Shown here: piece after piece, positions 16,046 to 19,200 of the stretch
How the letters are laid out: each line of letters opens with the position of its first letter
Position numbering within the stretch: the first letter of the stretch is position 1
NCBI RefSeq assembly: GCF_900607225.1
Contig: NZ_LR027842.1
Coordinates: 1,176,651-1,240,650 of the forward strand
Direction of reading: 5' to 3'
Length of the DNA stretch: 64,000 nucleotides
Source: [Pseudopropionibacterium] massiliense
GTDB taxonomy: Bacteria; Actinomycetota; Actinomycetes; Propionibacteriales; Propionibacteriaceae
The notes under the pieces: model-generated
Seen by the model: only the letters and a program-made list of their open reading frames with translations
Databases searched by the model: none
What the model was told of the DNA's origin: nothing
Position numbers and translations under genes: made by a program

Positions 16046-19000
16046 CGCCCACCTCCCAGCAGATCGGAGACCTCCACCACCAGGTCGGCCGGTGGGAACC
16101 ACTCGAAAACCCCGCAACGCCCGCCCGCGACCACCGGGGTCCCGGGCCCGGCCATACCCCGCACGAACAGATAACCCACCCCGCCCAGATGCCTCCCGGG
16201 CGAGTAACCGGGAAGCCGCCAGGCCAGGAAACGGTGCAGGGCTGCGCAGTACAGCAGCGCCTGCAGCGGATAGTGGGCCTGCATCATCGCCTCCGCCATC
16301 GTGGACGGAGCGTAGTGCTCGACGGACAGCTCCTGCTCCGGTGGCACCGGGAGCCGGTTCGTCTTGTAGTCCACCACCACGAAACCTCCCGAGGGCAGTT
16401 TCAACACCACGTCGATCGAACCGGTCAGGAAACCCCTCAGCGACGCGTGGGCGGCGTCGGTGGCGAGCAGCCGGGCCGGGTAGGGGGCGAGCGGATCGGA
16501 TGCGGGCAGGTGCCTGGACATCGCCTCCGCCAGGTCCGCGACCACACGGGCCGGGCCGCGATCCCCCAAAGGCAGGTCGAAGTCCAGCTCTGCCAGCCGC
16601 TCGGCGACGGGCAGGTCCGCCAGGGCACCGTCCCACAACCGACCCAGCGGGGTCGTGACCACCAGGCGTAGGGCCTCGGCGAGCCGCTGCGCCTGCTCCC
16701 GGTCCAGCCCGAAGGCGGGAGCCCGGGCGGCCACCACCTGTTGCACGTGCCCCGGGTCGGTCCAGTCAGCTTGTTCCAGGACCTGTCTCGTATACACCTC
16801 TGACGCCGCCGACGAAGAGGATAGAGTAGATCCCGGTGGGCCCGGCGTCCTCATAAAAGCGCCCCCGGGGGGCAGGTCGAGTTCCTCCGGTTCGTCCGGC
16901 GCGTTCTCGTGGAGGTTCGCGGTCAGTCCGGAGTAGGAGGTGCGGCGCCACTCCTGGTCGATGTCGCGGGTGAAACGGGCGATCCGGAGCTTCCCGGAGC
17001 CCGGCCCGGGGGTGGGGTCCGGGAGCCCGGAACCCCAAGGGGGTGCGGTGACCGGGGACAGGTGCACCAGGATCGGGTCGAAACCGAACGCGGGGGGCAG
17101 CCTGGGGTATTCGGGGCGAAGCCGCGGGACCGAGCGGTCGCGGCACAGCAGCGCCGTCAACGGCCCTGAGGACGCCCTGCGGTCCATCACGTGCCAGGCG
17201 ATCGCCAGGTGTTCGGCGCGGGTGAGACCCACGTAGAGCAGGCGGAGTTCCTCGTCGCGCGCCTGTCGCCTGGCGAGGGCGGACAACTCGTCGCGGCTGC
17301 CGGGGCGGGCGCCGACGTGCAGCACCCGCCGGCCGTCCGCATCCAGGTAGGGGAAGGCGCCGCGCAGGTTCACCTCCGTGACGCTCACCTGCGGCAGCAG
17401 CACGATCGGGAACTCCAGGCCCTTCGCCGAGTGCATGGTGCACACCCGCACCGCGGCCCGGTCGGAGGCCAGGCGGGTGGCCGGTTCGTCGCCCGGGGTG
17501 GCGGCCCGGGCGACCAGCCAGGCGTGGAGTCCGTCGAGGTCGGTGGCGTCCGACCCGAGCAGCAGCTCACCGACCCGGGTCAGGTCGGCCAGAAGACGTT
17601 CCCCATCCCCGAGCCGGGCCAGGTGGGGGCCGAGGCCCGCCAGCAGCTCACCGACCAGCGAGGTCACCCCACCGGCCGCGAAGCACCGGGCCAGCTCGTG
17701 GATCCGCTGCGACGCGGGGGTTTCGTCGCGCCCTGCCAGCAGGTCGGTGGCGGGCAGGCCGAGCAGCTCGCCCAGGGCGGCCTGGAGGATGCGGGCGCGG
17801 GTCGGCTGGGCGATGGCCGCGAGCACCGCCAGCCAGTCGGCCACGGCCGGGGAGTCGAGGGCTGAACCGGGGCCGTGCCAGGTGGCGGGCAGCCCCGCCG
17901 CGCGCAGCTCGGAGACCAGGGCCATGCCTCGGCCGCGGGTCCGGGTGAGGATCGCGATGTCCCGGGGGCCGACGGGCCGTTCCCCTGCGTCGCTGCGGAA
18001 CCGTGCCCCGGCCAGCAACGCCCGCACGTGCGCCACCACGTCGTCCGTCACGGCGCGTTCCGGGTTGCCGGTGGCACCGGGGCCGTGCCCGCGCAGCCAG
18101 ATGCGGGCCGCGGGGGCGGCGTCGAGGACCAGGACCTCCTCATCCGGGGAGCGGGCGGAGCGCACGGGGGTGACCCGGATGTCCGAATCACCCAGGCAGA
18201 GGTCCCCGAACAGGTCCGTCACTCCCGCGACCACCCCGGGTTCGCTCCGGTGGTTGGTCTCCAGGGTGGCGCGGTGCCGGACCACTCGCGTGGCCTCCAG
18301 GTAGGAGCCGAGATCCGCGCTGCGGAAGCCGTAGATCGACTGCTTGGGGTCGCCGATCAGCGTGATCATCGCGCCCGCGTCCACGAAGGTGCGCCGCAGG
18401 ATGGCCCACTGGTCCGGGTCGGTGTCCTGGAACTCGTCGACCAGCACCACGGGAAAGCGGCGCCGGAGTTCCGCGCGCACCTGCTCGGCGACCGGGGAGT
18501 CGGTGACCAGGGACCGCAGCCTGCCCGGCAGGTCGTCGAAACTGACCAGCCCCAGCGCGCGCCGGCGCGCCGCGAAACGGGCCCGCACCCGTTTCTGGAA
18601 GTCCAGCAGCTCCTGGTCCGCCGAGGCGAGGGGAAGCCGCGACGGGGCCGCGGTGGCGGCGACCAGAAGCGCGCGGCGCGCGTCCAGCGGCGGGTCGGGG
18701 TGGTGGAGATAGCTGGCCAGGTACTCGTCGGTGGCGCACTCGCGCACCAGGGTGGAGACGTCGGCGGTCACCTCGTCGGCGCCGTCCCAGTCCCCCAGCA
18801 CACCCAGGCTCTCCAGTTGTCCCTGGCAGAACGAATGGATGGTGGTGATCGTCGCGGTCCCGAAGTCGTCCAGGGCCGCCCGGAGCCGTTGCCGATGGCG
18901 TGAGGCGTGGCGGTCGGCCCCGAGCAGCCGCGAGACCGGGTCCACGGGTTCGGGACCGCCCGCCAGCATGTTGTCCAGGTCATTCGCGACGGATGCGAGC

Positions 19001-19200
19001 CGGGAGTGGACCCGGCCCCGCAGTTCCGCGGCGGCCGCGTTGCTGAAGGTGATGAGCAACAGCTCCCCGATTGCCACTCCCGCCTCGGCGATGTGGCGGG
19101 CTGCGAGTCCCGCTATGGTCCAGGTCTTGCCCGTCCCGGCGCTGGCCTCCAGCAGCATCGGGCCGTCGGGCAGGGGACCGGTGATCTCGAACGGAATCAT
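16042..19200 (-). CDS. recB: Exodeoxyribonuclease V beta subunit RecB (sequence corrupted near residue 790)
   Basis: A 1052-residue UvrD-like helicase fused to a RecB-family nuclease. Walker A is ASAGTGKT (19-26), motif II is VDEFQD, motif III is GDPKQSIYGFR, and the nuclease has GSID (D930) and VDYKTN (D944, K946). Residues about 782-806 are encoded by adapter sequence (16783-16858). In RecB proteins this position, just before VLEQADW, normally reads like AFGTLVH and supplies the conserved nuclease His. The frame stays open only by chance, so the CDS is probably intact in the organism. The ATG overlaps the recC stop (ATGA). RecB is the 3'-5' motor and nuclease for double-strand break resection. 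Confidence 0.93.
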   Translation of the reverse strand: MIPFEITGPLPDGPMLLEASAGTGKTWTIAGLAARHIAEAGVAIGELLLITFSNAAAAELRGRVHSRLASVANDLDNMLAGGPEPVDPVSRLLGADRHASRHRQRLRAALDDFGTATITTIHSFCQGQLESLGVLGDWDGADEVTADVSTLVRECATDEYLASYLHHPDPPLDARRALLVAATAAPSRLPLASADQELLDFQKRVRARFAARRRALGLVSFDDLPGRLRSLVTDSPVAEQVRAELRRRFPVVLVDEFQDTDPDQWAILRRTFVDAGAMITLIGDPKQSIYGFRSADLGSYLEATRVVRHRATLETNHRSEPGVVAGVTDLFGDLCLGDSDIRVTPVRSARSPDEEVLVLDAAPAARIWLRGHGPGATGNPERAVTDDVVAHVRALLAGARFRSDAGERPVGPRDIAILTRTRGRGMALVSELRAAGLPATWHGPGSALDSPAVADWLAVLAAIAQPTRARILQAALGELLGLPATDLLAGRDETPASQRIHELARCFAAGGVTSLVGELLAGLGPHLARLGDGERLLADLTRVGELLLGSDATDLDGLHAWLVARAATPGDEPATRLASDRAAVRVCTMHSAKGLEFPIVLLPQVSVTEVNLRGAFPYLDADGRRVLHVGARPGSRDELSALARRQARDEELRLLYVGLTRAEHLAIAWHVMDRRASSGPLTALLCRDRSVPRLRPEYPRLPPAFGFDPILVHLSPVTAPPWGSGLPDPTPGPGSGKLRIARFTRDIDQEWRRTSYSGLTANLHENAPDEPEELDLPPGGAFMRTPGPPGSTLSSSSAASEVYTRQVLEQADWTDPGHVQQVVAARAPAFGLDREQAQRLAEALRLVVTTPLGRLWDGALADLPVAERLAELDFDLPLGDRGPARVVADLAEAMSRHLPASDPLAPYPARLLATDAAHASLRGFLTGSIDVVLKLPSGGFVVVDYKTNRLPVPPEQELSVEHYAPSTMAEAMMQAHYPLQALLYCAALHRFLAWRLPGYSPGRHLGGVGYLFVRGMAGPGTPVVAGGRCGVFEWFPPADLVVEVSDLLGGGR
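16783..16858 (+). other. Illumina Nextera adapter read-through embedded in the assembly
   Basis: 16783-16815 reads CTGTCTCgTATACACcTCT then GACGCcGCCGACGA, 30 of 33 identical to the reverse complement of the Nextera read-1 transposase adapter. 16816-16823 is AGAGGATA, exactly the reverse complement of i5 index S503/N503 (TATCCTCT). 16824 onward matches the reverse complement of P5 (GTGTAGATCTCGGTGG, 14 of 16, then degrading), and 16853-16858 is A-rich, as when a read runs off the fragment. On the minus strand it translates to SSAASEVYTRQ, a variant of the well-known contamination peptide SSAASDVYKRQ. This is a sequencing or assembly artefact, not biology. Confidence 0.96.

Follow-up and report, generated by a model that had tools for sequence, protein, structure and literature searches.

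The window analysed here, a stretch of 64,000 nucleotides, lies within a 3,469,457-base contig of a genome that comprises 3,476,625 bases in 6 contigs. It carries on its reverse strand a recB reading frame, and within this frame there is a segment that matches Nextera library adapters (Table 1). Window positions 16783-16839 could be aligned without gaps to a reverse-complemented adapter sequence made up of the Nextera read-1 transposase adapter, i5 index TATCCTCT and the first bases of P5, with 52 of the 57 bases being identical. Past 16839 the P5 match decays, and after a run of AAAA native-like sequence is found again from about 16867. In the kit index list TATCCTCT is presumably S503. The first-pass annotation of this DNA had already described the transposase adapter, an exact index and a decaying P5 match, and all its counts were reproduced by our alignment. 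It had placed the segment at 16783..16858; the start and the adapter parts stand, but the damage is longer than stated and reaches about 16866.

Table 1. Features of the recB locus (window positions) and adapter remnants at three other sites of the genome (contig positions)
Feature	Position	Strand	Match or remark
recB reading frame carrying the adapter segment	16042..19200	-	putative start ATG at 19200, chosen from the translated sequence
Nextera read-1 transposase adapter, reverse complement (19-base mosaic end + 14-base tail)	16783..16815	+	30/33
i5 index TATCCTCT, reverse complement	16816..16823	+	8/8
P5 reverse complement, first 16 bases	16824..16839	+	14/16
Degraded P5 remainder, short A-run (16856-16859) and noise	16840..16866	+	right edge approximate, where the similarity to relatives resumes
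Site (a): near-exact i7-side adapter, index CAGAGAGG (8/8) and P7	C1:2645065-2645140	-	74/76 query bases
Site (b): i7-side adapter, index (7/8 of CAGAGAGG) and P7 with a four-base gap	C1:2075001-2075062	-	
Site (c): poorer i5-side copy	C1:474621-474671		close to the end of a gene whose product has a von Willebrand type A domain

The segment stands out clearly from its surroundings. Its local alignment score was 42, while the best scores elsewhere in the window, with the segment masked, were 12 on the forward and 11 on the reverse strand. The 33-base adapter pattern, when up to three mismatches were allowed, occurred once in the window and in none of 100 dinucleotide shuffles, and a search of the whole genome with the adapter as query returned the recB site with an E value of 7.7e-17. 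The G+C content over the 50 bases from 16783 is 0.54, compared to 0.67 for the whole window.

The recB frame remains open through the adapter segment. One frame of the unaltered adapter, translated in the same orientation, encodes the peptide MIRRPPRSTLSSSSAASDVYKRQ, and the peptide in the window is a slightly changed version of it, thus the open frame and the peptide are both adapter-derived. In the RecB protein of the window Pfam recognized the helicase domains as well as PDDEXK_1; the match to the latter began at profile position 70, as opposed to position 35 in two relatives. When this protein was aligned with 11 relatives (G003, G004 and nine from a set of 35 loci), all 11 carried FGTLVHE or FGTVVHE where the nuclease domain begins, whereas the window RecB had STLSSSSAASEVYTRQ instead. 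A functional variant of the RecB nuclease would be expected to keep the conserved FGT..HE start of the PD-(D/E)XK domain, whose histidine is catalytic in RecB, but this motif is missing from the protein encoded in the window.

The native state of the site can be seen in the nearest relatives. When 700 bases around the site were searched in 41 genomes, the own genome being one of them, some match was found in 30. Besides the own genome, matches over the full 700 bases were obtained with G003 (88% identity) and G004 (80%), and G017 matched over 684 bases at 66%. In the comparison with G003 the identity was 279/300 in the left and 133/140 in the right flank (93-95%), and 15-21 of 57 inside the segment depending on the offset; the corresponding values for G004 were 262/300 and 122/140 (87%) in the flanks, and 12-24 of 57 inside, again depending on the offset. 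Both genomes have an ordinary native recB sequence at the site, from which the adapter is absent. As this native stretch is 85 bases long in both nearest relatives and 88 bases long in the window, we conclude that native sequence was replaced rather than added to. As a separate observation, the aligned recB stretch of the MAG S30M_Sa_58 contains one in-frame stop.

When the complete genome was searched with the two Nextera adapters, three remnants besides that in recB came to light, i.e. four adapter sites in total. The remaining genome-wide matches (E values of 0.4 and above) were taken as chance, except for one with an E value of 2.78, which is site (a). At site (a), which adjoins a putative zinc metallopeptidase gene, the P7 sequence is followed by further A and AT-rich noise, and 180 bases are found in place of 128 in G004. 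Site (b) interrupts a CobS-like gene (Pfam was run on the part before the adapter). Here the adapter is followed by noise, 101 Ns and then a piece of about 46 bases, which in G003 and G004 is inverted and lies slightly further downstream, and the whole replacement amounts to 239 bases, Ns included, in place of 66 in G003. With the inverted piece, this one join shows two kinds of assembly fault. For site (c), both flanks could be aligned with G004, but the sequence between them is different. The i5-side copies at site (c) and in recB have one deviation in common, T to C at adapter base 25. Common descent of these two copies was considered and rejected, since they are otherwise different. The index CAGAGAGG is presumably N708, and a single dual-indexed library would be expected to leave just such a trace in an assembly, one i5 index together with one i7 index. 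The order and the orientation of the adapter parts, as well as the library index, are as the first-pass annotation had described them, and its interpretation as read-through is backed by the partner adapter (i7/P7), which occurs at two sites elsewhere in the assembly.

We confirm that the approximately 80 bases in recB are a Nextera adapter remnant, a laboratory artefact and not a biological feature. With a probability of about 98%, the segment arose during sequencing and assembly, by adapter read-through and subsequent joining of contigs. This reading is based on the partner adapter found elsewhere in this assembly, on the native recB in the relatives, and on the loss of the nuclease motif together with the adapter-encoded peptide. 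Four features that Nextera read-through leaves behind were found: adapter, index and P5 follow each other in this order, as reverse complement, on the 3' side of the insert, the index belongs to the kit, the partner adapter occurs elsewhere in the assembly, and the close relatives lack the segment at this site. At one of the copies a gap of Ns lies right behind the adapter.

The most likely course of events is the following. Tagmentation would have given a short fragment with one end in recB, which was sequenced to that end, and the read, which from the library geometry would be of the read-2 type, would have run on across transposase adapter, i5 index and P5 until it reached blank cycles. Because of the errors in its adapter part the read would have passed trimming, the assembler would have used it to extend a contig end, and contigs would have been merged or scaffolded later into one chromosome-length contig, about 85 native recB bases being replaced by 88 others. 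Three elements of this scheme are inferred: the type of the read, its passage through trimming, and the mode in which two contigs were joined at recB.

Some observations count against the artefact reading. At the right-hand join in recB we found neither Ns nor a second adapter. The length differs from the native one by only three bases and leaves the reading frame open, an outcome to be expected in roughly a third of random joins. For a single Illumina read, five mismatches in 57 bases is a high number, and the deviation common to both i5 copies need not be produced by independent errors. It is conceivable that polishing or hybrid correction overwrote recB with adapter bases where the short-read cover was thin, mixing native and adapter letters, which would be an artefact of the same library by a different route. 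The open frame and the near-equal lengths of the replaced and the native stretch would fit such overwriting, but at the five adapter mismatches the window has the base of the relatives in only 0-2 of the five positions (depending on offset and relative), which lends it no support. Moreover, the replaced and native lengths are far apart at sites (a) and (b), so the near-equal length at recB is probably a coincidence, and we consider the polishing route unlikely.

Explanations that do not involve the library fare much worse. The Nextera mosaic end derives from Tn5, and the copy in recB is diverged, as might be expected if it were the end of a genuine Tn5/IS50-type mobile element or an old insertion that has since changed. 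The match, however, extends into the synthetic tail, the index and P5, while transposon sequence was not found past the 19-base mosaic end; the P7-bearing partner is present in the same assembly, and the site is free of any such insertion in both G003 and G004. A mobile element is therefore highly improbable. Even less credible is that a rapidly evolving linker of recB resembles the adapter by chance: although the frame is open and the remainder of the gene looks normal, the E value, the shuffles, the exact index and the loss of a motif kept by all aligned relatives speak against it, and it is already refuted by the presence of the partner adapter in this assembly.

The first-pass annotation had proposed that the mismatches let the adapter escape trimming. 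This fits our results and is indirectly supported: a search for the 19-base mosaic end with up to three mismatches gave two matches in the own genome, each with exactly two mismatches. The default threshold of the Illumina trimming software is 90%, which two mismatches in 19 would just miss. The other two adapter copies of the genome have 4 and 9 mosaic-end mismatches when aligned without gaps. Among 198 genomes of the family the mosaic end was matched in 14, and the reversed control pattern once in each of five genomes. Apart from the two matches in the own genome, there were six in G083 (five with two mismatches, one with three), 30 in G099, of which all 20 listed were exact, and six in G159, five of them exact; in each of the other ten genomes there were one or two hits, which had 1-3 mismatches. 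Judged by these sequences, G099 and G159 look untrimmed. The 33-base adapter was found in 4 of the 198 family genomes and in 13 of 394 genomes of the class sample, its control having no hits in either set. Among the matches listed for the class sample, some genomes had only exact copies, some only error-bearing ones, and some both. A rule that survivors have at least two mismatches in the mosaic end holds for the present genome (2/2) and for G083 (6/6), but not generally: one-mismatch copies were among the matches listed for G321, G339, G389, G424, G458 and G467 of the class sample. The data fit the removal of clean copies by trimming in some data sets, with no universal threshold. It is possible, though we hold this only tentatively, that survivors with errors make up a type of contamination of their own which is under-counted, and that trimmed assemblies joined to chromosome length keep mainly mismatched copies.

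It is useful to compare the recB segment with known cases. Adapter contamination has been documented in deposited microbial genomes, both isolates and MAGs (Moeller et al. 2024, PMC11536531). That survey relied on exact matching of a 12-base TruSeq adapter, and its hits were concentrated near contig ends. The recB copy resembles these cases in that an adapter was built into a deposited genome, but differs from them in being Nextera-derived and error-bearing, and in lying inside a contig of 3.47 Mb. Within the same family, G083 is similar in having error-bearing transposase adapter inside a long contig, with an index after each copy, although the index is a different one (TACTCCTT and variants); in the three copies that were read, a single N was found within 48-108 bases of the start of the copy. 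The drafts G099 and G159 also share this transposase adapter, and an index comes after it wherever the contig extends far enough, but the four copies that were read are exact and located at contig ends, which extend at most 13 bases past the 33-mer. The recB segment is the same kind of fault as the documented contamination, an ordinary artefact.

The genome is rated 100% complete with 0.07% contamination, and its main contig is 3.47 Mb long. Such completeness and contamination figures do not reveal the adapter fault, and the record should be flagged. Three more places of the chromosome were damaged by the same library, thus users of the genome should mask all four. If error-bearing survivors do form a class of their own, exact-match screens would miss them, and they could be mistaken for in-frame variants of genuine proteins. 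Read literally, the record presents a RecB without the conserved motif of the nuclease domain, in a genome that looks nearly finished.
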